Part shown: one piece after another, positions 4,978 to 31,276 of the stretch | How positions within the stretch are numbered: the stretch's first letter is position 1 | How the letters are laid out: each line of letters begins with the position of its first letter | Translations under genes and position numbers: made by a program | The notes under the pieces: generated by a model | What the model was told of the DNA's origin: nothing | What the model saw: only the letters and a program-made list of their open reading frames with translations | Database searches by the model: none | Origin: a virus | Reading direction: 5' to 3' (one strand) | Length of the DNA: 38,900 nucleotides | Virus record (IMG/VR): IMGVR_UViG_3300030106_003845 | Span: 1 to 38,900 of that record

Positions 4978-5444
4978 TGCAGACACTCCTCGCAGCCATA
5001 ACCATGAAAATCTTACCTCTAGGTTCCATTTTTCTAGGTATTGTTTTAAACGCAGCAGACCTGCGTCTTGAGTGGCAGGACAATTCTGACAACGAGGATG
5101 GGTTTGAAATCTGGCGTCGCGTTAATGAGGGCGAGTGGTTGTTAATAGGAGCTACCAACACGGATATTTCAACATTTGTTGATGGAGTAATACCAATAGG
5201 CAGCGTTTTGTCCTATCGTGTCAGAGCATGGAATCAGTTTGGGGAGAGCGGGTACTCTAACATCGTTTCGATAGGAACTTATCCGCCTGCGGCTCCGTCA
5301 GATCTTGGCGGCGTAGTTGTGCCGTCTAGCTCTGTTTCGTGGGAATACGATGACAATGAGGTTGGCCCAAAACCACCGCGTCGAAGCGTGTCAGTAAAAA
5401 CATATAGAGACGATAAAGGGCGTCTTGTCATTGTAAGATCATGA
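4977..5444 (+). CDS. Fibronectin type III-domain protein
   Basis: The 155-residue product contains one FN3 fold at about residues 28-103: LRLEWQDNSDNEDGFEIWRR, then YRVRAWNQFGESGYSNIV. The Trp, the Asp/Gly-Phe-Glu-Ile strand and the Tyr-Arg-Val-Arg-Ala strand are classic FN3 positions. The N-terminus is hydrophobic (MKILPLGSIFLGIVLNAAD from residue 10), resembling a signal or anchor segment. A second ATG at 5004 would begin with that segment. The basic C-terminal tail continues past the domain. Placed directly after the LamG adhesin, it is probably an accessory virion or surface-binding protein. Confidence 0.7.
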   Translation: MQTLLAAITMKILPLGSIFLGIVLNAADLRLEWQDNSDNEDGFEIWRRVNEGEWLLIGATNTDISTFVDGVIPIGSVLSYRVRAWNQFGESGYSNIVSIGTYPPAAPSDLGGVVVPSSSVSWEYDDNEVGPKPPRRSVSVKTYRDDKGRLVIVRS

Positions 5445-5686
5445 GGAGTATAGCCACCATAGGTGCCGTTAAGGGTGATAGGTATCTTGACATTACGGAC
5501 TACAAGCGAGTCCTAGAATCTATGTGTGCAGAGAAGGAATGGGAGTACAACGCATTTAGGGACTATATATTTTTTAACGAACAATGTTTTAACATCAAAG
5601 ATAGGCAGGAGCTTAAGAGTAAGCTAGAGAAAAGAAAGCTTTCAATTAGTAAACTCAAAGAGTACGCCTTAGAATACGAACAGTGA
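5441..5686 (+). CDS. Small helical hypothetical protein
   Basis: This 81-residue, mostly helical, charged protein starts MRSIATIGAVKGDRYLDITD and has a Lys/Glu-rich C-terminal half (KSKLEKRKLSISKLKEYALE). Its ATG overlaps the FN3 gene stop (ATGA). Its own TGA overlaps the GTG start of the next gene (GTGA), so it sits inside a coupled cassette that ends in the holin-like genes. No membrane segment, cysteine pair or catalytic motif is visible. A lysis-related role would be a guess from position only. Confidence 0.5.
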   Translation: MRSIATIGAVKGDRYLDITDYKRVLESMCAEKEWEYNAFRDYIFFNEQCFNIKDRQELKSKLEKRKLSISKLKEYALEYEQ

Positions 5687-5847
5687 GGGAAGTGGTAGAA
5701 AGATCGGCTATAGGAGTTCTAGGATCAGGCACTGGCTTGGCTCTAGCAGGAACGAATCAAATATTATCAGTGATAGCATCCGTGTTCACTATAATATTTA
5801 TGGGTCTTTCTATTGTAAAAATTATAAAGGACATAAAGAAAAAATGA
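5683..5847 (+). CDS. Small holin-like membrane protein
   Basis: GTG at 5683 begins a 54-residue frame that overlaps both neighbours by four bases (GTGA at its start, ATGA at its end). The protein has a charged N-terminus (REVVERS), a Gly/Ala/Leu-rich weakly hydrophobic stretch at about 8-23, a clear membrane segment at about 26-44 (ILSVIASVFTIIFMGLSIV), and a strongly basic tail (KIIKDIKKK). Small size, one or two membrane spans and a basic tail fit a holin or antiholin. The next gene is a second membrane protein of holin type, so the two may act as a pair. Confidence 0.55.
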   Translation: MREVVERSAIGVLGSGTGLALAGTNQILSVIASVFTIIFMGLSIVKIIKDIKKK

Positions 5848-6254
5848 GCGGCGAGTTAGTGGCAATGCTTGGCGGCGGAGTCACGGGATTTGTCATGAAA
5901 CTGATTTCAGCACAAATGCAAATCCAAGCTAATGCCATTCAATCAATGATACAAAAGCAAAAGGTAGCAGATGATTCCGCAGATAAAGCAGCAAAACGAA
6001 CAGGAGAAGGAGGAGCGTGGATCAGACGTTTCATTGCAATTTGCATACTTTTCTCAGTCGTATTTGCCCCCTTCATCATGGCATTTTTTGATATACCAGT
6101 AACGGTTGAAAGTGCTAAAAACGGAATATTAAAATTTTTAGGAATAGGGTCAGACAAATGGCAAAGCTTAGAAGGATTTGTATTGTTGCCAGAGGTTAGG
6201 CAAGGGATGCTAGCACTACTAGGATTTTACTTTGGAAGTTCACAGGTTAAATAA
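5844..6254 (+). CDS. Holin-like membrane protein, GTA/3TM-holin type
   Basis: The 136-residue product has an N-terminal Gly-rich amphipathic segment (LVAMLGGGVTGFVMKLI), a central polar helix, a clear membrane span at about 62-82 (FIAICILFSVVFAPFIMAFF), and a final hydrophobic helix near 117-131 (GMLALLGFYFG). This order resembles the three-span holins of gene transfer agents and related phages. It directly follows a smaller membrane protein with a 4-base overlap. The lysozyme gene is far away at 35612 in the head module, so the lysis genes are split. The assignment is by topology, not by a catalytic motif. Confidence 0.55.
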   Translation: MSGELVAMLGGGVTGFVMKLISAQMQIQANAIQSMIQKQKVADDSADKAAKRTGEGGAWIRRFIAICILFSVVFAPFIMAFFDIPVTVESAKNGILKFLGIGSDKWQSLEGFVLLPEVRQGMLALLGFYFGSSQVK

Positions 6255-6265
6255 GAGATATTAAT

Positions 6266-6325
6266 ATGAAATACAAAACAACTAAAAAGGTCGCCAAAAG
6301 AAAAACTGCTAAAAAAAGATACTAA
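6266..6325 (+). CDS. 19-residue Lys/Arg peptide, first of a basic mini-gene series
   Basis: ATG at 6266 encodes MKYKTTKKVAKRKTAKKRY and stops with a TAA whose last base is the first base of the next ATG. Eleven of 19 residues are Lys or Arg, and none is acidic. Its reality rests on the TAATG linkage to the next gene and on the run of similar basic mini-genes that follows; alone it would not be callable. It may bind DNA or RNA inside the virion, but nothing shows this directly. Confidence 0.4.
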   Translation: MKYKTTKKVAKRKTAKKRY

Positions 6326-6390
6326 TGCGAAAAGGCAAAAAGAAATCTTGTGGTTGCAGGAGTTGCAAGGGAAGGCGAAGGGTGCGATAA
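6325..6390 (+). CDS. 21-residue Cys/Lys/Arg peptide
   Basis: The frame starts with the ATG of a TAATG overlap at 6325 and ends in another TAATG at 6388-6392. The peptide MRKGKKKSCGCRSCKGRRRV (plus one Arg) has a CxC-xx-C arrangement in an extremely basic context, which could bind a metal or form disulfides. Being linked by one-base overlaps on both sides makes it more than a chance frame. No known family is recognised. Confidence 0.45.
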   Translation: MRKGKKKSCGCRSCKGRRRVR

Positions 6391-6572
6391 TGGGTATGGG
6401 CGTAAAGCACTACCGGAAGGATGGTAGGGAACATAAGGGCGAATACCACAAAATGCCCAACGGGCAACTTCATTCTGGAAAGACACATAACAAATCTTCC
6501 GTAAGGCTGTATCACTACGGCGATCTCTCCAAAAAATCACAAAACAAAGCTAGAAAGTCTTGGAACGTATAA
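6390..6572 (+). CDS. 60-residue basic, His-rich small protein
   Basis: The frame begins with ATG at 6390 (TAATG overlap) and ends at 6572, where the next ATG again shares a base. The product starts MGMGVKHYRKDGREHKGEYH and carries HKMPNGQLHSGKTHNKSS in its middle. It has seven His residues, many Lys and a C-terminal KSWNV. The pattern Tyr-x-Lys-Asp-Gly-x-x-x-x-Gly-x-x-His-Lys-Met-Pro-Asn-Gly resembles short phage proteins seen next to structural genes in aquatic phages, from memory. The function is unknown; a virion DNA-condensing or adaptor role is possible. Confidence 0.55.
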   Translation: MGMGVKHYRKDGREHKGEYHKMPNGQLHSGKTHNKSSVRLYHYGDLSKKSQNKARKSWNV

Positions 6573-6703
6573 TGCCTAAAGACGCTTGTTATAGAAAAGT
6601 CAAAGCTCGGTATAAGGTGTTTCCATCTGCTTACGCAAGTGGGGCAATAGCTAAGTGCCGAAAGGTGGGTGCTGCCAACTGGGGTAAGCGCAGGAAGAAA
6701 TAA
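6572..6703 (+). CDS. 43-residue basic protein with a two-Cys motif
   Basis: The product starts MPKDACYRKVKARYKVFPSA and contains YASGAIAKCRKVGAANWGKR before a Lys end. The pattern Ala-Cys-Tyr-x-Lys-Val-Lys-x-Arg-Tyr-x-Val-x-Pro-Ser-Ala-Tyr-Ala-Ser-Gly-x-x-x-x-Cys-Arg is, from memory, shared by many uncharacterised proteins of aquatic phages and some giant viruses. Two cysteines lie about 23 residues apart. Both ends are one-base TAATG overlaps. It is very likely a true gene, but its biochemical role is unknown. Confidence 0.65.
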   Translation: MPKDACYRKVKARYKVFPSAYASGAIAKCRKVGAANWGKRRKK

Positions 6704-6981
6704 TGTCTGTAAGAAAGACAAAGAAAGGTGCCGCTCTCAAGCGGTGGTTTAATGAAAAGTGGGTAGATGTACGCACTGGCAAACCATGTGGTCGACGCAA
6801 AGGGGAAAAGCGAGGCACTCCATATTGTCGTCCCTCAAAGCGTGTAAGCAGTAAGACTCCTGTTACTAAAGGAGAGATGACAGAATCCCAGAAGCGATCA
6901 AGAATAGCTCAGAAGAAAAAACTAGGACAACCACCGGGTAAACCCCGAAGAGTAAAGGCGGTACGACGTGGCAGTAAATAA
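6703..6981 (+). CDS. 92-residue basic protein (DUF5872-like)
   Basis: The product carries WFNEKWVDVRTGKPCGRRKG around residues 14-33, then a Cys-Arg-Pro-Ser-Lys-Arg-Val-Ser segment, then a Lys/Arg/Pro-rich tail. The pattern Lys-Trp-Val-Asp-(Val/Ile)-x-Thr-Gly-Lys-Pro-Cys-Gly-Arg followed by Tyr-x-x-Cys-Arg-Pro matches what I recall of DUF5872, a small family found in viruses and phages. The label is tentative. Two Cys about 15 residues apart could bind metal. It starts at a TAATG overlap and overlaps the next gene by 14 bases. Net charge is extremely positive, so nucleic-acid binding is a fair inference. Confidence 0.65.
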   Translation: MSVRKTKKGAALKRWFNEKWVDVRTGKPCGRRKGEKRGTPYCRPSKRVSSKTPVTKGEMTESQKRSRIAQKKKLGQPPGKPRRVKAVRRGSK

Positions 6982-7216
6982 GAAAAAAATGCCGTGCAAC
7001 AAACCACGGAGGCAGGTCTCCGGTGGTAAGAAATTTGTTGTAAAGGCATGCCAAGGCGGAAAGCAAAAGATTGTTCGTTTTGGCGATGCCAACATGAGCA
7101 TCAAAAAAAACAATCCAGCACGCAAGAGAAGCTATTGTGCGAGGTCTGGAGGAATAAAAGGCAAAAGAAATAAGTTGTCTGCGAATTACTGGAGTCGCAG
7201 AGCTTGGAACTGTTAA
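6968..7216 (+). CDS. 82-residue basic Cys protein ending in a YWSRRAW motif
   Basis: GTG at 6968 (or ATG at 6989) opens this frame, overlapping the previous gene by 14 bases. The central and C-terminal parts read KQKIVRFGDANMSIKKNNPA, then RSYCARSGG and SANYWSRRAWNC. The pattern Lys-Ile-Val-Arg-Phe-Gly-Asp-x-x-Met-x-Ile-Lys-Lys-Asn-x-Pro-x-Arg followed by x-Tyr-Trp-Ser-x-x-x-Trp is one I recall from many small proteins of marine phages. Its function is not established. Four Cys and a very high basic charge are visible. Its TAA overlaps the next ATG by one base. It sits between the lysis genes and the large tail protein. Confidence 0.65.
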   Translation: MAVNKKKMPCNKPRRQVSGGKKFVVKACQGGKQKIVRFGDANMSIKKNNPARKRSYCARSGGIKGKRNKLSANYWSRRAWNC

Positions 7217-9852
7217 TGGCTAGATACGACACATACGGGAAAATAGACGACAGGATTACCGAGGAGCTTGATACAGGCTTTCTTGGTTTTAATAATCGTC
7301 TGCGTCCAGATCAGTTGCAGCCCGGAATCTTGACTGTTTCTGAGAATGGAAGGCTAGATTTAAACGGTGAGTGGCAAACTAGAAAAGCCATTGAGCACTT
7401 AGCTTCTCCGTTTCAATCTTCTGTGCTTTTCTCGGACAACGCTACGGATTCTAAACTAAAGCTTTTTGACAACGCTAGTATTACGCCAACGGGCAGGACA
7501 GATAATCCAACTACCGGAGCATCTGTGGACAGCTCTACAGGTGTAATGACTATAACTTTTGATGCAGGTCATGGAATATCCTCTGATTACGATGGGCATG
7601 TTTTCTTTCTAAACGGATTTGTTGGTAACGTAAAAATAGACGGGAATTATTTAATAACAAGAATTAGTGCTACCCAGATTAGTGTTGTTGTTAGTGGACT
7701 AACAACGATAAACACAAGAGGAGAAGTCTTTGGTCTAAGCCTAGATGACTCAGCGGCTAATGTTATAGAGTTCGCTATCGAATACAGCGACCCGAACAAC
7801 AACAGCGAATCTTACGTTCTCTGTATAGGAACTAATTCTGCTGCGGCAGTTAAATGTTCAGACGGTTCCGTAACCAGTATATCTTATCCAGTAAATCAAT
7901 CCGCTGCTGGTGCTACAGCTGTTCAAGCGTTTGGTAAAGTTTTTATATTCAGAGACGGCAAGGTTGCAATGGAGTGGGACGGCACACTAACTGGAACTCC
8001 CTCTTTTTCACTCGTTCCCAATGGTTCTTTCACGAACCCTGCTGATATTATAGTTCCAGCCGGAAGCTTTCAGGTTCTAAATCAAATAGCAACGGTTGTT
8101 TCTGATACGGGATCTTTAAATAGAAATGCTTCTATATCTATAAAAAACGGTGTTAATCCAGATATTGAAGACACAAGCGACTCAGGGTACGACATTAGTT
8201 CCTCTGGACTGAAACAAGGTTTTGAGTTCTTTATAAAAGAAGTTTTTGCCGATGGTTCTGCGAAAGATATATCTACAACTAGCCTTAGCACAACGGCTGG
8301 ATCTGGATCTTTTACTGGGTACAACAAGGCAACATTTACTACAGCAGTAGCACACGATCTAAAAGTTAGCGATCCTATTTTTATTGATAATTATCACTCA
8401 TCTGTTGATGGGAACAGAATTGTAGCTGAAGTAGGCAGCACTACGACATTCTCAATTTACGTATCCGGTACTTTGAGCAGCCAAGGTCCGGTGCCCGGAG
8501 GAGGAGTAATTCCTACCGTAAAAATAAAAAAAGGATTTACGTTCTCCGTTCCAGCAACTCCAAACGCTGAAGGACTTCAAGCAAGTGATGGTAGCAAAAC
8601 ATCTAAGGACACACTTGCAGCAACGCCAACGTTCTTAGAAAAAGCTTCAGAGGGCGGTTCGTTTATCCATATGCCAGCACCCGCATTCGGAGAGTACCAC
8701 CAAGCTAGACTGGCCGTTCCGTTCAGGTATGATATGGACGAAGATTCTACTGGAACAACAATCACGGACAGAAACATACACGATGAAATCATACTATCTC
8801 GTGCGTTATTTGACAGTGAGTACGATAAGGATAGAGCGTCTTTTAGATTAAATGCTGGTACATCTGACTTTGTTGTTGGACTTCATTCTTTTTCTGACGA
8901 CAAACTAGTTGTATTTAATAGGAGTAGCATACACATAATTAGCGACAGCATAAATGTTGAGAAATCTAAAAACACTTTAATTACAAATGAGGTAGGTTGT
9001 ATTGCTAGAAGAAGCATAATACAAGTAGCTAACAACTTAATATTTCTGTCCGACAATGGAGTATACGGAGTTGACTTCCAAGACCTGTATAACCTTCGGG
9101 GAAGGGACTTACCTATATCGGCTACCATAGAGTCCACCATGAAGGATCTCAACAAGGATCACGCGGATAAAGCAGTTGGCGTTTATTTCAACAACAGGTA
9201 TTATCTGGCCGCTCCATTTGGAAGTTCTGTAGTAAACAATAAGGTTATTATATATAATTTTATTAATAAGAACTGGGAGTCCATAGACTCAGTATCTGCC
9301 CCAGAATGGGCTTTTTCAAATCTTGTTGTTGCTGGCAAAGGAAATAAAAGAGGAGTATATGCGATAAATTCAGATGGAGGTGTTCACAGATTAGAAGCCT
9401 CGGATTCAGCCGTAGATCAATACATTCCAGCTGTTGGTCAGCCAACAACTACAGCACCTATAGCTGGAGTAGCTACTACTAGAATGTACACTGCTAGATC
9501 AATAGACAGAAAAAAATGGAATAACTTTGAGATACACGCACAATCGTCATCCCAAGATTCTGATGCAAACCTTTTTGCTATAACAGAAAACATAGACAGC
9601 ACGGCTGTTGATCCAACCACAGGTTTACCGATTGATTCTTCAATTAGCTTAGGGTCTCTGTCTTCTTTAGCTGGGAAAACAGGAGGCGATATACTTACTG
9701 GAAACGAGGACTATTCTATACGCGGGAGAATAGGAAACCCAAGAGCGTACGGAATTCAACTATCATTAGAAACAACTACAGGAAGACCCAAGCTACGGTC
9801 AGTTAAGGTAGCAGGTGCAAAAACATTTAGGAATTTAGAACCAGCAGAATAA
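7216..9852 (+). CDS. Large tail/stabilisation protein (tail tubular B-like)
   Basis: ATG at 7216 is chosen over a TTG at 7204 because it overlaps the upstream TAA (TAATG), a pattern repeated across this operon. The 878-residue product is beta-rich, with phrases such as TTFSIYVSGTLSSQGPVPGG, FSDDKLVVFNRSSIHIIS and LIFLSDNGVYGVDFQDLYN. Repeated blades of the type Val-Val-Phe-Asn-x-x-Ser-Ile-His-Ile and Tyr-Gly-Val-x-Phe-Gln suggest a propeller-like middle, as expected for the nozzle or stabilisation proteins of podovirus tails. The next gene is the tail spike, which fits. There is no tape-measure-like gene nearby. The exact homologue in T7 or P22 terms is uncertain. Confidence 0.65.
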   Translation: MARYDTYGKIDDRITEELDTGFLGFNNRLRPDQLQPGILTVSENGRLDLNGEWQTRKAIEHLASPFQSSVLFSDNATDSKLKLFDNASITPTGRTDNPTTGASVDSSTGVMTITFDAGHGISSDYDGHVFFLNGFVGNVKIDGNYLITRISATQISVVVSGLTTINTRGEVFGLSLDDSAANVIEFAIEYSDPNNNSESYVLCIGTNSAAAVKCSDGSVTSISYPVNQSAAGATAVQAFGKVFIFRDGKVAMEWDGTLTGTPSFSLVPNGSFTNPADIIVPAGSFQVLNQIATVVSDTGSLNRNASISIKNGVNPDIEDTSDSGYDISSSGLKQGFEFFIKEVFADGSAKDISTTSLSTTAGSGSFTGYNKATFTTAVAHDLKVSDPIFIDNYHSSVDGNRIVAEVGSTTTFSIYVSGTLSSQGPVPGGGVIPTVKIKKGFTFSVPATPNAEGLQASDGSKTSKDTLAATPTFLEKASEGGSFIHMPAPAFGEYHQARLAVPFRYDMDEDSTGTTITDRNIHDEIILSRALFDSEYDKDRASFRLNAGTSDFVVGLHSFSDDKLVVFNRSSIHIISDSINVEKSKNTLITNEVGCIARRSIIQVANNLIFLSDNGVYGVDFQDLYNLRGRDLPISATIESTMKDLNKDHADKAVGVYFNNRYYLAAPFGSSVVNNKVIIYNFINKNWESIDSVSAPEWAFSNLVVAGKGNKRGVYAINSDGGVHRLEASDSAVDQYIPAVGQPTTTAPIAGVATTRMYTARSIDRKKWNNFEIHAQSSSQDSDANLFAITENIDSTAVDPTTGLPIDSSISLGSLSSLAGKTGGDILTGNEDYSIRGRIGNPRAYGIQLSLETTTGRPKLRSVKVAGAKTFRNLEPAE

Positions 9853-20404: not shown

Positions 20405-20721
20405 ATATTTTTAGGCCACATTCCTCTAGACTGCAAATAATTGGTTACTTTATCCATATCTGGAGAACGCCTCTGGGGCCATCGTACCGATCCTGACTTA
20501 GCAATTTTAGCATTATGGGATAGGTGACGAGATGTGTTATACTCGTCCCTCCTATCTTTGATAGTGTTGTTTAATTCTTCGGGCGACATGGGGAGAACGC
20601 AACCGCTGCTGGCCTCTATAGTGCCGCCCGATATGCAAGCGGCTTTATGTATAGCCGTTTTAAAACGGGTCGACTTTACTTCGTGTACTACTTCACCTTT
20701 TTTATTTTTTACTAACCACAT
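20401..20721 (-). CDS. Hypothetical protein, basic, early operon
   Basis: The 106-residue basic protein begins MWLVKNKKGEVVHEVKSTRF, an N-terminal beta-hairpin-like stretch, and continues with a Ser/Cys-rich loop and a Pro/Glu helix (SPEELNNTIKDRRDEYNTSR). No family is recognised. It overlaps the exonuclease gene upstream by 20 bases and the DUF1599-like gene downstream by four. The first 40 residues could be a small DNA-binding module, but this is only an impression. Confidence 0.45.
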   Translation of the reverse strand: MWLVKNKKGEVVHEVKSTRFKTAIHKAACISGGTIEASSGCVLPMSPEELNNTIKDRRDEYNTSRHLSHNAKIAKSGSVRWPQRRSPDMDKVTNYLQSRGMWPKNI

Positions 20722-21517
20722 TTTTTTTACGCTCCTTTTCTATTTGTCTATGTTCTAAGTAATCTTTGAATACTTTCTCAGAAATTTCGTAATGTTTACC
20801 GCAGCTCTGGCATTGCATTTGGTGTCTTCTTATGCCAGCGGCACTAATCTTGTTCTGCTTCTTATGCACGTCCTCAGAGCCGCAATGGGGGCAGCTCCAC
20901 CTGTCTGAACCCTGCGAAACGCCAATGTGTGTTTTAGGCTTTGCGTAGTGAGATAACTCGTTGTACACTTCTTGAAGAAGAAGAACATCTCTTTTGCAGT
21001 ACTGCACCATATAATCCAAAGCTTCTTGGTCTTTATCCAGTACTATGTCAACCCAAAGGTCCCAACTCGTAGAGATTTTTCCTTGCCCGAACAAATACTT
21101 CCCCAAGTAATCCAGTCTACCGGAGTTCAACCCCATCTTCCTCGCCCACTTCAAAGTGTCGACTGTGGACACGTTGACATCTCCGCGAACCTTGTGGTAC
21201 ATCATTCGGCCCTTAAGCCACGGGAAATCAAAACGATCTATGTTATGCCCAACCAATTCGTCAGCGTCTTCTATTATGTCGGCGAACTTTTTAATAATGC
21301 GGTAATCGGCATTGTTGTTCTGCTCTCTCCATCGACCAATTTTGCTGAAGTCCCAATCTATGTTGTGCACCTCCTTCTCGTGCTCGGTCTTCCAGCACAA
21401 GGTAACAACCGCCCTCTCTTTGACAATATTATCATGCGGTATATTAATTTTGTATCCCGCCTTCCAAAGCAGGGCTATATTGGGGCTTGTCTCTATATCT
21501 AAGAAAACTCTCTTCAT
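20702..21517 (-). CDS. DEDDy 3'-5' exonuclease with C-terminal zinc ribbon
   Basis: ATG at 21517 is chosen because it overlaps the upstream TGA (ATGA); a longer frame from 21574 has no such support. The 271-residue product has FLDIET at residues 5-10 (Asp7, Glu9), VGHNIDRFDFPWL at 89-101, and YCKRD at 173-177. Together these form the DEDDy pattern of RNase H-fold exonucleases. Residues 209-239 hold CPHC and CQSC, a four-Cys zinc ribbon, which is unusual beside this domain. With no DNA polymerase gene in the genome, this may act in DNA repair, primer removal or proofreading in trans for the host polymerase. That last point is inference. Confidence 0.8.
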   Translation of the reverse strand: MKRVFLDIETSPNIALLWKAGYKINIPHDNIVKERAVVTLCWKTEHEKEVHNIDWDFSKIGRWREQNNNADYRIIKKFADIIEDADELVGHNIDRFDFPWLKGRMMYHKVRGDVNVSTVDTLKWARKMGLNSGRLDYLGKYLFGQGKISTSWDLWVDIVLDKDQEALDYMVQYCKRDVLLLQEVYNELSHYAKPKTHIGVSQGSDRWSCPHCGSEDVHKKQNKISAAGIRRHQMQCQSCGKHYEISEKVFKDYLEHRQIEKERKKNVVSKK

Positions 21518-21825
21518 AATAATTTTGAAGCTAAGAATTGCGTACACATAGCTCCGAACTCCTCGTCGTAGCAACTAGTGTGCTGTTGTGTTTTTATTAC
21601 AGCGTGATGAATTTCATGAGCAATAATGGAGTTACATTTTTTACTTACATAAATTAAAATGTGTGGACCGCTTTTCCAGCAGGCTCCTAAAAAGCTATCA
21701 TCGAATTCTAGATCTTTGACTACTCCTTGAGAGTACGCCCAGTTGCTGTATGATTCAAACGATCCTCCTATTTGACACAGATATCCCGTTGGCAAGAAAT
21801 CGTTTTTAACAAAAATTCTTTTCAT
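21514..21825 (-). CDS. Small HExxH zincin-like protein
   Basis: The 103-residue product carries IIAHEIHHAVIK, with His70-Glu71-x-x-His74 as the zincin zinc-binding and catalytic core and a nearby acidic helix (YDEEFGA, 86-92) that could supply the third ligand. It lacks a signal peptide. The ATG at 21825 is preferred to a TTG at 21846, which would start inside the terminator stem. Curiously, the AUG follows directly on the U-tract of that terminator, with no Shine-Dalgarno site. Proteins of this size and motif (SprT or minimal zincin types) are sometimes seen in phages. Target unknown. Confidence 0.6.
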   Translation of the reverse strand: MKRIFVKNDFLPTGYLCQIGGSFESYSNWAYSQGVVKDLEFDDSFLGACWKSGPHILIYVSKKCNSIIAHEIHHAVIKTQQHTSCYDEEFGAMCTQFLASKLL

Positions 21826-22343: not shown

Positions 22344-24179
22344 CTAAAAGACGCTAAATTCTTGGCTTGTCAAGTCCCATTCTGGGATTTCTTCATTTTT
22401 TTCTAATTTTTCTAAATTTTGTATCTCAGTATGGAACATTCGTCGGCTCTTTTGGAACCACAGATCCCTGTAAACAAGTATTCCGGAGTTCCGCTGCTTG
22501 GACACGTAGAACTTCCCATCGGGTCCTTCTGCCTGCTCTCCCGCTTCTAGCTTCTTCTCCTTCTCCTTATTCCTCCAGATAAGAGCAATACTGTGAGATG
22601 CAGCAACTATGCCCTGCCCACCTAGTATGTGCTCGTTTTCCGGTACACCAGCAGTAGTAGCCTTCTTCGCATCACAATGAGCTATCAGAATTACCGTAAC
22701 CCTGTTGTCCAGTGCGAACTTCGCTGCTTGCTTCGCAATACGCTCCTGCCCGTTCCAGTCGTCTTTCGCCGTTAGGTGCATCAGTGCATCTATCACAAAA
22801 ATGTCGCATCCATATCTGCGATTAGCATATAGGAAGTCATCCTTGAGGCTTTCCCAAGTATTGTCTGTACCCTCCTCGGACTCCACAAACCAAAGTTTAT
22901 CTGCAAGAATCTGCACATCGTCCTCGATCTTGTCAGGATTTGGACATTTACCGTTCTGCATCCACAGCATCTGCATCAGCATCGACGAACTAGGTATCTC
23001 AAATGATGCAACACATCCCCTGCGATCATTAGCCACCATTTCGTGCAACACCATCTGGTACATCAGTTGGCTTTTACCGTGTCCTGCGTACCCTCCTAGG
23101 GTAACTAGCTCGCCCTCACGCAATCTGAACGGGAGCTCAGGCCACATGAACGGATTGTGCGCTTTCTCGCTTTCGTATCTCTGGACCTCATCAGCAACAT
23201 CTGAACCTAGGCTTGCTGCTGTGCGTATCGTCGGAGGGTCATTAGACTCCGCAGACTGCACTAGATCTGGAGCATCTGTAGGAGATTTGCGTAATAAATC
23301 GTTAGCGTCGTTGATCCCTTCTGGGTACTGCACCGTCCTACAACGCTGCAAGCCAAGTCTCTTGGCTATCGCTTTTGCAGCTTTTTGACCCGCTTCATCA
23401 TTGTCCATCGCTATGTAGATGTTCTCGAAACGGGACAACGCCTCGTAGTCGTTATCAATCCAACCCAAGTTGGACACGCCACTGGGCACAGACAGACACG
23501 GCATCCCTATATCCATCTGATCCCATGACATGGCATCTATCTCACCCTCGGTAATTAAAATACTTCTATCGTCGTCAGTTACATTCTTCCAACCCCAAAG
23601 AGTATGCCAAGCGGCGGTAGACCAAATGTCCTTCTTGCCGTCCTGACGGAGTACCCCTGTACTTTTCAGCATCACGTAACTCCCTTCAGGATCGTAAAAA
23701 CGTGCAGCCCAAAAATTATCGTTAACTCCGCTGTACCGTTTGTGGGACCGTATCCCATATTTTTGCAGAACGGCCTCGGATATTCCACGTTCCTGCGACA
23801 GATATTTCATGGCCTCTGTGCCACGCATCGGTCCTAGAGCGGTACTGCTATCTCTAGCTACTGTAGGACGCTGTGCTGATACTACTGGTTTTACGTCATG
23901 CAATCCGCAGATGCGTCGGGCTTCCACAAACGCCTCCTTCCAGTTTTCATGCTTTCTAGCGATAAGGGACAGTATAGGGACGCAATCCCCACCTTGGTGC
24001 TCCTTGGCTAAGTACACGCCACCTCTGGCCCTGAACACGCTAACGGACTTTCCCCGATTTCCGTCAAGATCTCCCATTTCGTATGTTGACCCACGCTTTT
24101 TAGCATCTGGGAAATATTTCTGCATCACGGTGTCAATTTGACCGGATAACGCAAGATTGATTTCTTGTGGTGTACTCAT
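22344..24179 (-). CDS. Toprim primase / DnaB-type helicase
   Basis: The 611-residue protein joins a primase and a replicative helicase, like T7 gp4 and Twinkle. Residues 207-216 read ILITEGEIDA and 256-261 IAMDND, the two acidic Toprim motifs. GYAGHGKS at 363-370 is the Walker A motif and CDIFVID at 458-464 the Walker B. VILIAHCDAKK and the following GGQGI match later helicase motifs. The first 90 residues correspond to the primase zinc domain in position (GGVYLAKEHQGGDCVPIL), but the four zinc cysteines are not present. It starts replication on the lagging strand and unwinds DNA at the fork. Confidence 0.9.
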   Translation of the reverse strand: MSTPQEINLALSGQIDTVMQKYFPDAKKRGSTYEMGDLDGNRGKSVSVFRARGGVYLAKEHQGGDCVPILSLIARKHENWKEAFVEARRICGLHDVKPVVSAQRPTVARDSSTALGPMRGTEAMKYLSQERGISEAVLQKYGIRSHKRYSGVNDNFWAARFYDPEGSYVMLKSTGVLRQDGKKDIWSTAAWHTLWGWKNVTDDDRSILITEGEIDAMSWDQMDIGMPCLSVPSGVSNLGWIDNDYEALSRFENIYIAMDNDEAGQKAAKAIAKRLGLQRCRTVQYPEGINDANDLLRKSPTDAPDLVQSAESNDPPTIRTAASLGSDVADEVQRYESEKAHNPFMWPELPFRLREGELVTLGGYAGHGKSQLMYQMVLHEMVANDRRGCVASFEIPSSSMLMQMLWMQNGKCPNPDKIEDDVQILADKLWFVESEEGTDNTWESLKDDFLYANRRYGCDIFVIDALMHLTAKDDWNGQERIAKQAAKFALDNRVTVILIAHCDAKKATTAGVPENEHILGGQGIVAASHSIALIWRNKEKEKKLEAGEQAEGPDGKFYVSKQRNSGILVYRDLWFQKSRRMFHTEIQNLEKLEKNEEIPEWDLTSQEFSVF

Positions 24180-25717: not shown

Positions 25718-25778
25718 GTAAACCATTTGGTTTAATCAAGTAAACCATTTGATTTACTTGAGTAAATCATTTGATTAA
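25718..25778. repeat. Three palindromic boxes spaced exactly 22 bp
   Basis: Boxes start at 25718, 25740 and 25762, each of the form GTAAACCATTTGGTTTA. The first has perfect 7-bp arms (TAAACCA-TT-TGGTTTA); the second and third have one arm mismatch each. A 22-bp period is about two helical turns, so three dimers would bind on the same face of the DNA. The third box covers the stop codon of the winged-helix gene. Confidence 0.85.
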
Positions 25779-26033
25779 CTTCCCTAGGTAAAGCTTCCTG
25801 AACCAGTGGGAACCTTTCTTTTCCAGATACTCGCTTTTTACTAAGGAAGAGATTCTGTTCTGGATGCTGTTCGGATGCCGTACGCCCAACAGCTCTGCTA
25901 TGGCCTCATTGCTGGCAAAACAGCCTTCTTCTCCGAACCCCTGCACGTACGCAAGGATCATCTTGTCGAGCTGTCTTAGTTTCGGATCGCTCAGTATTTG
26001 GGATGAGATCCAGATCCCTCTGCTTGGTGACAT
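25767..26033 (-). CDS. Small winged-helix DNA-binding protein
   Basis: The 88-residue product follows the pattern of the helix-turn-helix domain of phage replication proteins (lambda O and DnaD-like) and of small regulators. It begins GIWISSQILSDPKLRQLDKM, then GCFASNEAIAELLGVRHPNS for the recognition-helix region at about 37-56, then a wing (SEYLEKKGSHWFRKLYLG). It is far shorter than a full initiator and has no partner-recruitment domain. Immediately downstream lie three palindromic boxes, and the first gene beyond is the start of the replication operon. A repressor of that operon or a minimal origin-binding protein are both plausible. Confidence 0.7.
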   Translation of the reverse strand: MSPSRGIWISSQILSDPKLRQLDKMILAYVQGFGEEGCFASNEAIAELLGVRHPNSIQNRISSLVKSEYLEKKGSHWFRKLYLGKLIK

Positions 26034-26855
26034 TTCTCGGGCAGAGCAGATTCCTCACTAGTTGTCAAACAAAATCTTTCAGGGACAAAAAGTACTTTTC
26101 GTTTCCGCTTGTCAGATGTCCTAGAACGCAATTCAGAGCCTTACCTATGCTTAGGTATCAACCCAACCCCCAAAACCCTTTCAGGGGGCTAAAACTTTAA
26201 AAACCGCCGCCATACGCATGGAAAAAACTGGAATTACGTTCGGCTTTTCGGCTTATTGTTCTATTTAGGCTTTCGGCTTTTTGTCCTATTGGTATATTAG
26301 GGCCGGGTTGCTGCCCTGCACCCGGTAGCCTCACCTGCGGGTAGTCGCACCCGGACGTTCCCGGTTGCCTCGGTGCCGGTTGAGTCCACATTATGGATAC
26401 GTCCTAGAACGGGCCATGTATCCACTGTCCTAGTACGTCCTAGTTCTTGAAGAGCTGTACGAAAAACGATCCGAAAAAACGTGAAATCACCAGATTATGG
26501 ATACACGATGGATCAAAATGACCTTATTTAGAATGATTCTAGGTAAATGTAAAAGATTTGTCTAATTTTGTGTTATTGAGACTCAATCTCAACGCCAGAT
26601 CGCGGAGGATTGGCGATCTCGATTCAAAATGGGATAGCATAGCCATATTCTCAAAGACGCCGTACAGAGCCTCTCAGAGCCTCTCAGGCATATATTTGAG
26701 TTTCCCCCTAGGGCAAAGCGCCGCCCTAGGGCCTATCAGATGGCCTAGGATTGGCGATCCCTGAATTCGAATCCCTAGCCATGCAACGCAAGCAAAGCGA
26801 TTTACAGAGCATCTGACGCCCGTATTCAGGATCACAAGACAAAGCGAGTACGCAC
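26034..26855. other. Repeat-rich gene-poor region between the winged-helix and VWA genes
   Basis: About 820 bp in which I see no supportable gene. It holds an AAAAAGTAC element (26087-26095) and a TTGACA element on the minus strand (26063-26068) before the winged-helix gene. It also has a perfect TACCTA-TGCT-TAGGTA hairpin (26142-26157), repeated CGGCTT units (26240-26280), and a GC-rich patch (26300-26380) with CCGGGT/ACCCGG arms at 26303-26308 and 26320-26325. Other elements are GTCCTAG boxes (26118, 26401-26446), two tandem AGAGCCTCTC units near 26674, and two copies of AGGATTGGCGATC (about 26608 and 26748). It could be a control region, origin or structured-RNA locus. Confidence 0.5.
26401..26446. 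repeat. GTCCTAG palindrome-like boxes, left cluster
   Basis: Three ten-base boxes of the GTCCTAGNNC type are present: GTCCTAGAAC at 26401-26410, GTCCTAGTAC at 26427-26436, and GTCCTAGTTC at 26437-26446. The last two abut. A fourth, GTCCTAGAAC, lies at about 26118. The same box is clustered on the far side of the AAA+/VWA genes at 30081-30169. Confidence 0.7.
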
Positions 26856-26885
26856 AAAAAAGCCCACAAGCCGAAGCCTGTGGGC
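26856..26885 (-). terminator. TTCG-tetraloop terminator after the VWA gene
   Basis: On the minus strand the sequence reads GCCCACAGGC, TTCG, GCTTGTGGGC, then six T. Nine of ten stem positions pair and the loop is the very stable TTCG tetraloop. It begins 23 bp beyond the VWA stop codon, so it ends the AAA+/VWA operon and separates it from the control region downstream. This is the clearest intrinsic terminator in the window. Confidence 0.9.
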
Positions 26886-26907
26886 CTGTATCCAGATTAT
26901 GGATGAT

Positions 26908-28434
26908 CTACGCCATAAGCTTGTCGCAGATCAGTCTTGCCAGTTGTATTGGATTTTCGCTGACAACGATTGTCTTGAACCACCGTTGCATCGATTTCGC
27001 GTAATCGTTTGCCTTGTTTTTATCACGCAAGCAACATCCGATCAAATCGACTTTACCGCGAAACTTTTCGAAGTCCGTTGTCGAATCAGTTATTGCAGCA
27101 TCAGTGAAGACTATAGCTGTATCCGCATTTTCCATACGAGAGCGATAGCGAACTAAACAAGATTGCATCGCTTCTCTGTTGGGCGATGGTCTCGCCCTTA
27201 GTATTTCCTTGCTGGATACATTGCTCATGTCTCCGATCATATCTTCGGAAGTGAAAACGATATCAACATCCGCGATACCCTTTTCATCCAGTAACCGTAA
27301 AGCGGATACGAACTCGATTCCGCCTAGGAATTGCAACGGGATTGACATAGACCCTGACATATCGACAACAACGAACAACTTTCTTTTCGTTTTCCTTTTG
27401 ACAACGCTAAGAAACGGATTGCCAGAGCCTGTCATTGCAGACTGAATACGAATCCTCGATCCGGTAGATGCTGATCTAGCCCTAGCCAGTCGATGATTAG
27501 CAGCAATGCTTGTCATTGAATTGCAAATACGATCCCTCGTTTTCTTTACGTAGTCTGAAGCTGGACCATCTTTGAACGGCCATAGATCCCAGTCCATGTC
27601 ATTAGGTTTTGAATACGTTCCATTTGGATTGTTGTTCAAGTTGTGACGTTGTACCGAATCCGGATCTTGGATACCACCGATTGAGTCATCGTACCAACCA
27701 ACGTCACCCTTGCGAGTATTGACAGGTTGTATTTGATCCTTGAATACTTCATAGAATTCAAGTGTTAGACTTAATCTAGTTTCGAGATCGATTGCTGCCG
27801 TTAAGGTGAGCATGTCGTAAAACCATTTCAGAACGTAAGTTGTATTCTTTTTGTGGTTACGAAAGGTTACCTCCTTGACGCCATTCCATTTCGGCGCTTG
27901 TTGTCGCCAACTTTTCCAAGTCTTTGCCTCGTTGAATTTCAACGTTAGTAGGTACTGGCAAGGATCGGCTGTATCCGTTGGAATACTACGAAGATAATTC
28001 TTCCAACCAAAACGGTCGCCAGTTCTCTGTTGTTCTTTTGCTTCGATGTAGCAATCTTCAGTCACGTTGAACACGTAGAACGGACAACCTTTATCTTGTA
28101 GTTCCTTTGCCAATACAGAGATCGAGAAGCTGTTGTCCAACGTGTGTCGACCATGCGCGCATTCATGCCAGATTAAACTCTTTATGAATTTGTGCAACTT
28201 GAGACCCTTCTTAGCTGTATCCGGATTTATCATACCGTCGATTTGTTGTCCAACGGCGATCTTGTGCTCGCAGTCAAAGGTCCAACTAGCTGTATCCAGA
28301 TCCTCTACAACCTGAGTTCTGACTCCACAATTTGAATACGAACGAAGCTCTCTGAGCTTGCCTATCTTTTGCTTTGCCGTTTTGTTTCGCCATTCAGAGC
28401 GAATGGCCTTTACGATTTTTGTATGTGATATCAT
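26908..28434 (-). CDS. VWA-domain protein with HExxH metallopeptidase-like N-terminal half
   Basis: The 508-residue protein has two recognisable parts. The N-terminal half holds IWHECAHGRHT, with His90-Glu91-x-x-His94, followed about 30 residues later by NVTEDCYIEAK with Glu126. This is the zinc-site layout of the CobT/DUF2201-like group of metallopeptidase-VWA proteins. The C-terminal half is a von Willebrand A domain: LFVVVDMSGSMS at 353-364 gives the metal-binding Asp-x-Ser-x-Ser (Asp358, Ser360, Ser362), with Asp445 in IVFTDAAITD as the later metal residue. The gene lies 19 bp after a MoxR-like AAA+ ATPase, the usual partner of such proteins in chelatase-like or protein-remodelling pairs. 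Its target is unknown. Confidence 0.8.
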   Translation of the reverse strand: MISHTKIVKAIRSEWRNKTAKQKIGKLRELRSYSNCGVRTQVVEDLDTASWTFDCEHKIAVGQQIDGMINPDTAKKGLKLHKFIKSLIWHECAHGRHTLDNSFSISVLAKELQDKGCPFYVFNVTEDCYIEAKEQQRTGDRFGWKNYLRSIPTDTADPCQYLLTLKFNEAKTWKSWRQQAPKWNGVKEVTFRNHKKNTTYVLKWFYDMLTLTAAIDLETRLSLTLEFYEVFKDQIQPVNTRKGDVGWYDDSIGGIQDPDSVQRHNLNNNPNGTYSKPNDMDWDLWPFKDGPASDYVKKTRDRICNSMTSIAANHRLARARSASTGSRIRIQSAMTGSGNPFLSVVKRKTKRKLFVVVDMSGSMSIPLQFLGGIEFVSALRLLDEKGIADVDIVFTSEDMIGDMSNVSSKEILRARPSPNREAMQSCLVRYRSRMENADTAIVFTDAAITDSTTDFEKFRGKVDLIGCCLRDKNKANDYAKSMQRWFKTIVVSENPIQLARLICDKLMA

Positions 28435-28453
28435 ATCTGTATTTACTTTCTAA

Positions 28454-29797
28454 TTACGCTAATGCTAGTTTAATCTCTTCGACTGCTTGCAAGCTATCTT
28501 GTAACGGATCGCCTGTCCTAGCGTCACTTTCAACAAGCTGATCTTCTAATCCGTCTTGTATCCATTTTCTAATGTCAGCCCAATCATCTGATCCTGACCA
28601 TTCCAATGCGTTGACTAAAGTCCGACAATCAATGGGCGCCTTAACTCTCATTTCATTGTATCGATCACGCGACAGCTTAGCCGCTTCAGCGAATTGGACT
28701 TCGTAGATCGTAACCTTGTACGTATCCGCAATTTGCTTACAGATATTAGCGAAATCATCTAGATCGAATTTGATATTCACTTTATGCCAGCGAGACCAGA
28801 ACGCCTCTGTAATGCTATTAGCACTACGATTGCCAGCGGCAATTATATGCAGGTTCTGAACCTTGCAACGGATCACTTCACAAGCTCCGTTCTTCATATG
28901 CCGAGTCCGAAGTACGTATTCAGGATCTCCTGACGCCTTGTTAGGTTCAAGGAAAGACAGCAAAAATTCCTGAGATACGATAGGCCACCTCAGAACTTCA
29001 TCGAGAAAGAGAAGAACCCTTTTCCCTTTACTTGCTGCTCGTACTGCCTGTGTCAATACACCATCGACAACAGCAAACCCACCGTTGCCATCTGGAACGG
29101 TAGACCCGACAAGTGTAGTTTCTTCGTCAATACTGTCCGAACAGCCATGCTCCAAGTATAGATCGTATGCGTTTCCAAGTTGCCTGATTGAATAACTCTT
29201 CCCGTAGCTAGGCGGACTTGTTACCAAAATCTTGAGACAAGGTCCTTGGTCCGGGTAGTACGGTAGAACCTTTTTTAAGATCACGTTATCACTCGAAGCT
29301 GTTGCAACCTTAGCTCTAGCCATTCTACTAGGAGAACCCTTTAAAGAGTCTCTGAAGGCGTTGTAATCCCTTTGAAGATCCTCTACTTGATCACGAACGG
29401 GAGTCAAAGCATCTTGTATTTCATCTTGTATCTGAGCCGTCGATACAGACTGCGAGCTATTGTCCATTGCTCGTCGAACGATGCTCGCAACTTGCGATGC
29501 AACATCGTTGGCAATGGGATTGCTAGAGGATACTTGTCTCCCCGCTCGATGCTCTTTGTATTCATGAAGCAACTTCTCGCAGACTTCCCTATGCTCAGCA
29601 GAGCTGATCCTTTCAATGGTCTCCAAAGCCAAAGGCAGAGCGATACCGCGAATTTGCGACGCCGTATTCGACGGAAGGTCTCCTAGCTGAACCATTGCTG
29701 GGACTATTGCATGGCGCAACTGATCCGTAGTTGAATTGAAGATACGACCGCGTAAAACGGTAACTACGGTTGACTTGATTGTTTCGATATTTGTCAT
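28454..29797 (-). CDS. MoxR-like AAA+ ATPase
   Basis: The 447-residue product starts with a helical region of about 170 residues, including heptad-like stretches (IQDEIQDALTPVRDQVEDLQ). An AAA+ core follows: Walker A at 194-201 (SPPSYGKS, a degenerate version lacking the usual first Gly), Walker B at 262-267 (LLFLDE), sensor-1 Asn323 in AAGNR, and a candidate arginine finger in FWSRW (336). The segment DEETTLVGSTVPDGNGGFAV and the following VDGVLTQAV match the MoxR/CobS style of hexameric ATPases that work with VWA proteins. The ATG lacks a Shine-Dalgarno site; its leader is AT-rich (AAATAAATACA before ATG). Confidence 0.8.
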   Translation of the reverse strand: MTNIETIKSTVVTVLRGRIFNSTTDQLRHAIVPAMVQLGDLPSNTASQIRGIALPLALETIERISSAEHREVCEKLLHEYKEHRAGRQVSSSNPIANDVASQVASIVRRAMDNSSQSVSTAQIQDEIQDALTPVRDQVEDLQRDYNAFRDSLKGSPSRMARAKVATASSDNVILKKVLPYYPDQGPCLKILVTSPPSYGKSYSIRQLGNAYDLYLEHGCSDSIDEETTLVGSTVPDGNGGFAVVDGVLTQAVRAASKGKRVLLFLDEVLRWPIVSQEFLLSFLEPNKASGDPEYVLRTRHMKNGACEVIRCKVQNLHIIAAGNRSANSITEAFWSRWHKVNIKFDLDDFANICKQIADTYKVTIYEVQFAEAAKLSRDRYNEMRVKAPIDCRTLVNALEWSGSDDWADIRKWIQDGLEDQLVESDARTGDPLQDSLQAVEEIKLALA

Positions 29798-29861
29798 TGT
29801 ATTTATTTTTTGGTTACTGTTGCGATTGCCAAGATCAGAGTGATCCCGAAAATCGGCGCAT

Positions 29862-29891
29862 ATAATACCATGTACGGGAGAGGTTTGTCAA
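29862..29891 (-). promoter_or_regulatory. Sigma70-like promoter for the AAA+/VWA operon
   Basis: On the minus strand TTGACA (29891-29886) and TATTAT (29867-29862) are separated by 18 bp. The first is a perfect -35 box and the second is one base from consensus. Transcription would start around 29855, leaving a leader of about 58 bases before the ATPase start codon at 29797. Confidence 0.7.
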
Positions 29892-29953
29892 CGATCTGTA
29901 ACGAATTGAATTTATAGGTCTAGGAAAAGGGAAAAAACGCCTTGATAGGTGGC

Positions 29954-29990
29954 AAAAAGTACCATTTTCTGTCGAAAAAGTACTATTTTT
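29954..29990. repeat. Two AAAAAGTACYATTTT elements
   Basis: AAAAAGTACCATTTTC (29954-29969) and AAAAAGTACTATTTTT (29975-29990) form a near-perfect direct repeat with 21-bp spacing. A related AAAAAGTACTTTTC lies at 26087-26100, just upstream of the winged-helix gene. Each contains AGTACT or AGTACC at its core and may be an operator half-site array. Confidence 0.65.
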
Positions 29991-30080
29991 GTTTTTCTAT
30001 AGCCCAACCTGTATCCAAAAAGCTTGGACAAACTGCACTTTTGGACCTGTCTAAGTTTTTTAACTACAAACAAGATCCGC

Positions 30081-30169
30081 GTCCTAGGACAGCTTTGCCG
30101 GCTGTATCTATATTTTGGGGATTTGTCCTAGTAGTCCTAGGACAACTACGTCCTAGGTCGTTCTAGATC
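30081..30169. repeat. GTCCTAGGAC palindrome cluster, right
   Basis: Five boxes occur in 89 bp: GTCCTAGGAC (30081-30090), GTCCTAGTAG (30125-30134), GTCCTAGGAC (30134-30143), GTCCTAGGTC (30150-30159) and GTTCTAGATC (30160-30169). Two are perfect 10-bp palindromes. They match the left cluster at 26401-26446. The same perfect box also occurs once inside the large internal virion gene (15501-15510), so single copies are not informative. Confidence 0.75.
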
Positions 30170-30286
30170 GTATCCAGATTTAAACTATTTTGGCTTGTAT
30201 CCAGTTTTTTGTGACGCACCGGGGCGGGGGTCGGGTGCCTTTGGATTTTAGAATTGCAATTTATGTACTGCCTTCTAAAAAAATAC

Positions 30287-30317
30287 TTGACTTATAGCTA
30301 TTTTTATGCTTTAGGCT
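30287..30317 (+). promoter_or_regulatory. Possible late promoter
   Basis: TTGACT at 30287-30292 is one base from the -35 consensus. The best -10 is weak (TAGGCT at 30312-30317, spacer 19). A direct repeat (AGCTATTTTT and GGCTATTTTT) overlaps this area. Because this is the head of the late operon, a promoter must lie nearby, but this one is only a candidate. Confidence 0.35.
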
Positions 30318-30326
30318 ATTTTTCTT

Positions 30327-31072: not shown

Positions 31073-31276
31073 GTGAGCGGTAAAGGTGACAGGGACAGAA
31101 CTATTGATAAAGACGCATACAATCAGGGATGGGAGCGCGTTTTTGGGGGAAACATAGATTTGATTCAGGAGGAGACGCCTGAAGACGTGGGTGCGAATCC
31201 CACTTCCTCCACCATTAGAAAAGTGCCGTTTCGTGCTCCGCCAATCAGGCATGGGCTCAGACGAGTAATTGAATGA
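31073..31276 (+). CDS. Small SGKGD-family protein preceding the large terminase
   Basis: GTG at 31073 is preferred to TTG at 31055, with GAGAGGA about ten bases upstream. The first 24 residues, SGKGDRDRTIDKDAYNQGWE and following, resemble a short phage protein family that I recall beginning Ser-Gly-Lys-Gly and ending near Trp-x-x-Ile/Val-Phe-Gly. The remaining 43 residues are unlike that family and are encoded by the tRNA-like element and the DNA after it. The stop overlaps the terminase ATG (ATGA), so the frame as a whole seems used. The unusual overlap of coding sequence and RNA fold is discussed separately. Confidence 0.6.
   Translation: MSGKGDRDRTIDKDAYNQGWERVFGGNIDLIQEETPEDVGANPTSSTIRKVPFRAPPIRHGLRRVIE
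31145..31214 (+). ncRNA. tRNA/tmRNA-TLD-like fold ending in encoded ACCA
   Basis: Bases 31145-31151 (GGGGGAA) pair with 31204-31210 (TTCCTCC) as a seven-pair acceptor stem with one G-T pair. A discriminator A and CCA follow at 31211-31214. Directly inside, GTGGG at 31187-31191 pairs with CCCAC at 31199-31203 around a seven-base loop TGCGAAT, a T-arm of exact tRNA dimensions. TCAGG (31165-31169) pairs with CCTGA (31178-31182) as a third stem. Thirteen unpaired bases replace a D-arm. This matches the tRNA-like domain of tmRNA, not a normal tRNA. All seventeen stem positions pair. Confidence 0.7.

Follow-up and report, generated by a model that had tools for sequence, protein, structure and literature searches.

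A predicted MoxR-like AAA+ ATPase and zincin-like VWA partner form a putative exchangeable cassette in a 38.9-kb phage genome

Results

A two-gene operon in an apparently complete phage genome

The window, that is, the whole 38,900-nt stretch of viral DNA analysed here (IMG/VR record IMGVR_UViG_3300030106_003845), carries two adjacent and intact open reading frames on its minus strand. The upstream gene (28454..29797; 447 aa) encodes an AAA+ ATPase of the MoxR/dynein-midasin type, with a helical N-terminal region (residues ~1-165) preceding the AAA+ core (~185-430). The downstream gene (26908..28434; 508 aa) encodes a partner protein with a predicted N-terminal HExxH zincin-like domain, a variable linker (~235-300) and a C-terminal VWA domain with a MIDAS metal site. 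An initial annotation had described the pair as an operon with 19 bp between the genes, its own promoter and a TTCG terminator. The ORF coordinates confirmed the spacing and both signals were located: an intrinsic terminator (26860..26887, minus strand; 12-bp stem, TTCG loop and T-run; AGGCCCACAGGC-TTCG-GCTTGTGGGCTT) lies directly 3' of the partner stop codon, and a sigma-70-type promoter-like site (29862..29891, minus strand; TTGACA-18-TATTAT with an extended -10 TG) lies 65 bp 5' of the ATPase start codon. The latter is a pattern match only; with 11 of 12 consensus matches it is the best of the region, across which such sites occur at chance level.

The record appears to be complete, because its 98 last bases repeat its beginning. 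Consistent with the claim that the phage lacks a DNA polymerase, none was found among the genes of this apparently complete 38.9-kb genome, in which only a DnaQ-like exonuclease (20702-21574) and a primase-helicase (22344-24179), both on the minus strand, were detected; a short replication-initiator-like protein is also encoded on that strand (25767-26033). The hexamer GTATCC/GGATAC was concentrated at the AAA/VWA cassette and its surroundings (17 of its 29 sites within 26034-30326, p 7e-10), topped 2078 hexamers for clustering, and was clustered likewise in two further genomes of the window lineage (G001 and G002). Four copies in the relative L074 (8401, 8428, 8448 and 8475) resemble iterons, and the sites are possibly origin or regulator sites.

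The ATPase is assigned through its family

Walker A (S194-PPSYGK-S201), Walker B (L262-LFLDE-267) and the sensor-1 asparagine (N323) are present as initially annotated and conserved in 19 of 19 ATPases, remote relatives included, with G199, K200, D266, E267, N323, R336 and R392 invariant in this alignment. Both Walker motifs, the arginine finger and sensors 1 and 2 are retained across the wide ATPase alignment, as is the sequence signature of a putative helix-2 insert (L-x-G...G...D-G-x-L-x-x-A-x-R; E225..G231..G239..D245 G246.L248..A251.R253). Taken alone, the window ATPase falls below the Pfam cut-offs (17.5 versus 21.2 bits for PF00004); its AAA+ assignment is carried by the family, because AAA_5 matches 12 of the 15 members. 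Compared to solved structures, the family profile matched midasin (1.9e-13) and CbbQ/NorQ (3.8e-6). Together with the motifs and the gene pairing, these profiles support the proposed reading of a MoxR-like ATPase with a zincin-VWA partner. A match of the helical region to the PHROG 'head maturation protease' (1.3e-4) was rejected as chance coiled-coil similarity found in one of 15 members, and PDB matches to Lon and Cdc48 were set aside as spanning only the generic AAA+ core and the helical region. AlphaFold models of the ATPase and its partner, built from alignments of 6-7 close orthologs, were poor (pLDDT 38-42, and 41 for the partner; pTM <0.3).

The partner combines a putative gluzincin-type and a VWA domain

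The partner carries HECAH at residues 90-94, DMSGS at 358-362 and TD at 444-445, so that the HExxH motif, the downstream glutamate and the VWA metal site (358-362, 445) named in the initial annotation are all present. In an alignment that includes remote relatives, HE..H, N123, E126 and E131 are kept in 20-21 of 21 partners. HExxH and, ~30 residues on, the N-x-x-E-D part of an N-x-x-E-D-x-R-I-E motif are conserved in 20 of 21 partners, the exception being L034, and the MIDAS (DMSGSM plus TD, i.e. DxSxS...TD) is found in 21/21. We therefore infer a gluzincin-type domain at the N-terminus, with the downstream glutamate as putative third ligand, although both HExxH and this glutamate can be structural or metal-transferring instead of proteolytic. 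The C-terminal half is most readily read as a VWA domain on the basis of its motifs and relatives. In three contigs (L031, L032 and L033) the partner is split into a zincin gene followed by a VWA gene, which shows that the two domains are separable.

Searches of Pfam, PHROG and the PDB gave no convincing family match for the partner. Pfam VWA_2, VWA and CoxE matched weakly in one or two family members, some partners matched an 'HNH endonuclease' PHROG, and a weak ClpC match in the PDB was discarded. Two of the models that the initial annotation had proposed for profile searches gave no match: PF13203/DUF2201 (bacterial metallopeptidase-VWA) had no match in the partner family, and CobT (PF06213) had none in the window, with CobT/CobT_C in 0 of 14 partners. 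Neither Pfam nor PHROG has a model for the partner, and routine annotation therefore misses the family.

The pair is conserved, adjacent and under purifying selection

Each protein has five to six close orthologs in viral contigs (68-92% identity), and searches with the alignment as query added 24 more distant viral ones (identity ~25-30%), for a total of about 30 viral contigs. A scan of bacterial genomes found eight further pairs, namely five in Sulfurimonas or Sulfurimonadaceae and one each in Mucispirillum, Novimethylophilus and Variovorax WDL1, the last on an 816-kb plasmid. Co-occurrence, which the initial annotation had suggested surveying, was supported: the ATPase gene comes immediately 5' of the partner gene in all viral loci that extend far enough upstream, as well as in 8/8 bacterial loci. 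The dN/dS of both genes, calculated only from sequence pairs whose synonymous sites were neither saturated nor nearly identical, was 0.08-0.14, synonymous changes exceeding amino-acid changes about ten-fold, which indicates that both are under purifying selection. The initial annotation had named absence from all relatives together with decay as counter-evidence; what we found instead were orthologs with dN/dS ~0.1. Overall, the conserved motifs, the retained adjacency and the low dN/dS argue that the pair is neither a chance arrangement nor a decaying remnant.

No match was obtained when both window proteins were searched by tblastn against 50,697 annotated phages, and the partners of L016, L050 and L034 likewise found none there. 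The initial annotation had suggested that the pair may serve host takeover or counter-defence or act on the phage's own replisome; in PADLOC, neither window protein matched a known defence family, and no counter-defence family was matched. In one distant marine clade, and confined to it, the gene following the VWA partner in 11 loci (e.g. L016, 8306-8743) encodes a SleB-like cell wall hydrolase (PF07486, 1.8e-10). The Sulfurimonas chromosomal pairs (L043, L045 and L048), whose ATPases differ in the N-terminal region, lie near a related P-loop gene (cluster c34), and a helix-turn-helix regulator is found near the pair in L043 and L045.

The pair occupies a slot with exchangeable content

The window lineage (the window, G001 and G002) and a distant marine lineage with a related terminase (G003 and G004) carry the pair at the same position, where it is divergent from a small-terminase-like gene. 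Close relatives lack it. Among the matches listed, the pair was absent from 31 of 31 further contigs, all of which have a terminase with 73-95% identity and upstream sequence of at least 2.4 kb; the whole slot was covered in 19 of the 31. Resting on a sample, this pair-less fraction is an estimate. Part of the comparison used incomplete contigs, so that in some relatives the pair could sit elsewhere. Compared to the closest pair-less relatives (L074, L078 and L082), the segment 26104..30169 has no DNA match while both flanks align. In L074, with a terminase 95% and a next large late protein 93% identical to those of the window, alignment runs to window position 26096 and resumes at 30170, and the slot holds a 515-aa gene without assignment and a 344-aa GGACT-domain gene (4575-8475). 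In the complete phage C75C1, which also lacks the pair, the slot carries genes annotated as amidoligase and gamma-glutamyl cyclotransferase (L051, 20149-22830). Other genes without assignment also occur as alternative cargo of this slot (26104-30169).

Conversely, four phages (G005-G008) carry the pair but have nothing else detectable in common with the window; the pair thus moves as a unit. What is new here is that the pair is, by these comparisons, an exchangeable cassette, and the life of close relatives without it (31/31 sampled; C75C1) marks it as dispensable cargo. The initial claim that the pair must matter holds in part: purifying selection (dN/dS 0.08-0.14) speaks for it, whereas the pair-less relatives (31/31 sampled and C75C1) speak against it. 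We conclude that the pair is probably an accessory tool and not part of the virus particle.

A mini-tmRNA-like element lies between the pair and the terminase

A 70-nt element resembling the tRNA-like domain of tmRNA, with the mRNA-like part missing, lies on the plus strand between the pair and the terminase (31145-31214) and is conserved in the window lineage. Other copies occur in L016 (10005-10071), L011 (4679-4744), L017 (5026-5090) and ~30 terminase-linked loci; in a distant lineage the equivalent element lies inside the early operon. The element has a 7-bp acceptor stem with an invariant G3-U, a T-arm and, in most copies, A73-CCA. In both tRNA-Ala and tmRNA, G3-U is the base pair that confers alanine identity. 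It also bears the tmRNA-type GAUUCGAC, which reads GAUUUGAU in the window copy, and a short helix stands where tmRNA has its ~310-nt mRNA-like part.

Covariation in the element is strong. In an alignment of 33 distinct sequences, which was fitted to the model, 96.6% of pair cells were standard, both-side changes were seen at 12 of 20 pairs (0 of 500 shuffles), and sliding the partners destroyed the signal. An independent 25-sequence alignment gave 58 both-side changes versus 26.7 when shuffled. The Rfam tmRNA model matched two elements from one end to the other, its interior being largely deleted (44.8 and 41.8 bits versus a cut-off of 47), and Rfam reported only a sub-threshold tRNA match for the window copy. 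Within the window clade, the element lies in frame in a conserved small ORF (67-112 aa; window ~31082-31276, plus strand), so that RNA and protein alike seem to constrain this DNA. A canonical tRNA-Thr (TGT) is found 3' of the element in L074 (9650-9725), L075 (2024-2099), L077 (2346-2421) and L078 (8232-8307); it directly adjoins the element in three relatives, and the same ORF reads through the tRNA in L075 and L077. The element can be read as a tmRNA tRNA-like domain without message part, possibly a novel phage 'mini-tmRNA', and, more speculatively, perhaps a decoy for ribosome rescue. Complete phage tmRNAs have been reported (PMC9004378); a narrower literature search of partial coverage found no truncated tmRNA of the window kind. 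The element may be more novel than the ATPase/partner pair.

Discussion

Possible function of the pair

Phage pairs of a MoxR ATPase and a metallopeptidase-VWA protein have met with two published proposals, virion assembly and cobalamin synthesis. Our own tentative reading, to which we give a little short of an even chance, is that the two proteins form one accessory machine, a hexameric MoxR-class motor with a zincin-VWA adaptor, which acts on a protein of the host or of a rival phage. By analogy with NorQD, CbbQO and midasin, the ATPase would assemble as a hexameric ring, the VWA domain would grip a specific protein through its MIDAS metal, and the ring would pull or twist the gripped protein, with an extension of the VWA partner entering the ATPase pore as in the solved NorQD complex (PMC13036017). 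Judging from its motifs, the zincin domain may then cut an exposed segment; cleavage of the held protein is the economical reading because this domain keeps HExxH and the downstream glutamate. A host-type promoter of its own would drive expression of the pair, an accessory cassette that would be dispensable for building the virion. The sequences themselves show the gene pair, its motifs, their conservation, purifying selection, co-transfer and cassette exchange. In a broader and somewhat unlikely form, the pair may represent an uncharacterised class of ATP-driven metalloprotease with an unfolding ring, a VWA substrate clamp and a gluzincin, which may be fused or reside on different chains. Phages and mobile DNA of bacteria would trade it as a weapon or shield that is interchangeable with the other accessory cassettes of the slot.

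An alternative explanation is a remodelling chaperone without proteolysis, similar to NorQD and CbbQO, in which the motor would restructure or activate an enzyme and the zincin-like domain would do no more than recognise the target or handle metal. Remodelling without cutting is indeed what NorQ, CbbQ and midasin do, the motor's best-studied relatives, and the twisting model of NorQD places a VWA finger into the AAA+ pore (PMC13036017). However, HExxH and the downstream glutamate in 20 of 21 partners go beyond the needs of a mere recognition domain, the N-terminal domain of MoxR-associated VWA proteins has been described as not conserved (PMC9976466), and the separate zincin and VWA genes in three contigs misfit a mechanism that stretches a covalent linker; we consider this explanation unlikely. 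Cobalamin synthesis, in which the pair would act as viral cobaltochelatase subunits (CobST) with the CobN of the host, has been proposed for archaeal tailed viruses (PMC8651126). The profile similarity and equal domain layout shared with ICP2 gp41/gp42, Cantare 56/55 and DSL-LC01 fit this proposal, as do the weak matches of the window ATPase (5.7e-4) and of four members of its family (best 5.7e-14) to the PHROG 'porphyrin biosynthesis'. It nevertheless appears quite improbable here: CobT finds nothing in the window, and neither CobT nor CobT_C matches any of 14 partners while ICP2 gp41 matches CobT_C at 7.6e-29, a B12-dependent ribonucleotide reductase is absent among the identified window genes, and HExxH is not known as a requirement for chelation. 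The CobST reading fails the profile test, though the general analogy stands.

The other published proposal, an assembly chaperone with a maturation protease, was made for jumbo phages (PMC7824862), and the archaeal virus ATV offers an analogy; group 2.2 jumbo phages share the two-gene architecture. For the pair studied here we regard a virion role as highly improbable and downgraded it on the terminase survey. The pair is missing at the locus in phages whose terminase is 90-95% and whose late protein is 93% identical, and the complete phage C75C1, whose capsid is related, does without it; the genes moreover lie on the early/replication side, outside the structural operon, in the window, the marine clades and ICP2. 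Absence from close relatives speaks for an accessory role in ATP-driven remodelling or proteolysis and not for virion assembly, and the cassette behaviour combined with the early-side position favours a host- or competitor-directed role, although accessory status by itself does not make the target a host protein. With near-identical phages that do and do not carry the pair, the window lineage is a natural knockout; the case for assembly is the weaker for it here, and an accessory function can be tested directly.

Comparison with known systems

The pair belongs to a known kind, the phage MoxR/"CobST"-like pairs (ICP2 gp41/42; jumbo phages, PMC7824862). Similar to the MoxR-vWA ternary conflict systems (VMAP, iSTAND, FtsH, beta-propeller; PMC7159879), it joins a MoxR ATPase to a VWA co-chaperone; unlike them, window-type loci have no conserved third component, no third gene being common to unrelated loci in the neighbourhoods compared. 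With NorQ/NorD and CbbQ/CbbO it shares the MoxR-class ATPase profile, a MIDAS VWA domain in the partner and pairing in an operon (PMC9976466), but the N-terminus of the window partner is zincin-like and the CbbQ_C profile is unmatched in the window ATPase family.

Closer counterparts, with an AAA+ ATPase encoded beside an HExxH...MIDAS protein, are found in Vibrio phage ICP2 (gp42/gp41), Brevibacterium phage Cantare (55/56) and Actinomycetia phage DSL-LC01. In single hhalign comparisons with these pairs, E values were 1e-10 to 2e-18 for the ATPase and 1e-5 to 3e-7 for the partner, and hmmsearch gave 24-55 bits for the ATPases and 19-22 bits for the partners, which align with the window family over short stretches only. 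The ICP2 ATPase matches AAA_5, as does most of the window family; ICP2 differs in its reversed gene order and in the CobT_C VWA domain of gp41, which the window partner family lacks. Clusters of cobST have been reported widely in tailed viruses, and in one of them cobT is in two parts (PMC8651126), a split of the kind seen in L031-L033. In group 2.2 jumbo phages, whose pair has been described together with the virion-assembly proposal, a MoxR ATPase likewise adjoins a vWA protein fused to an N-terminal metallopeptidase (ASV44729.1/ASV44728.2; PMC7824862). This likeness is one of architecture as described, and in contrast to the jumbo-phage pair, that of the window belongs to a 38.9-kb phage in which it is optional.
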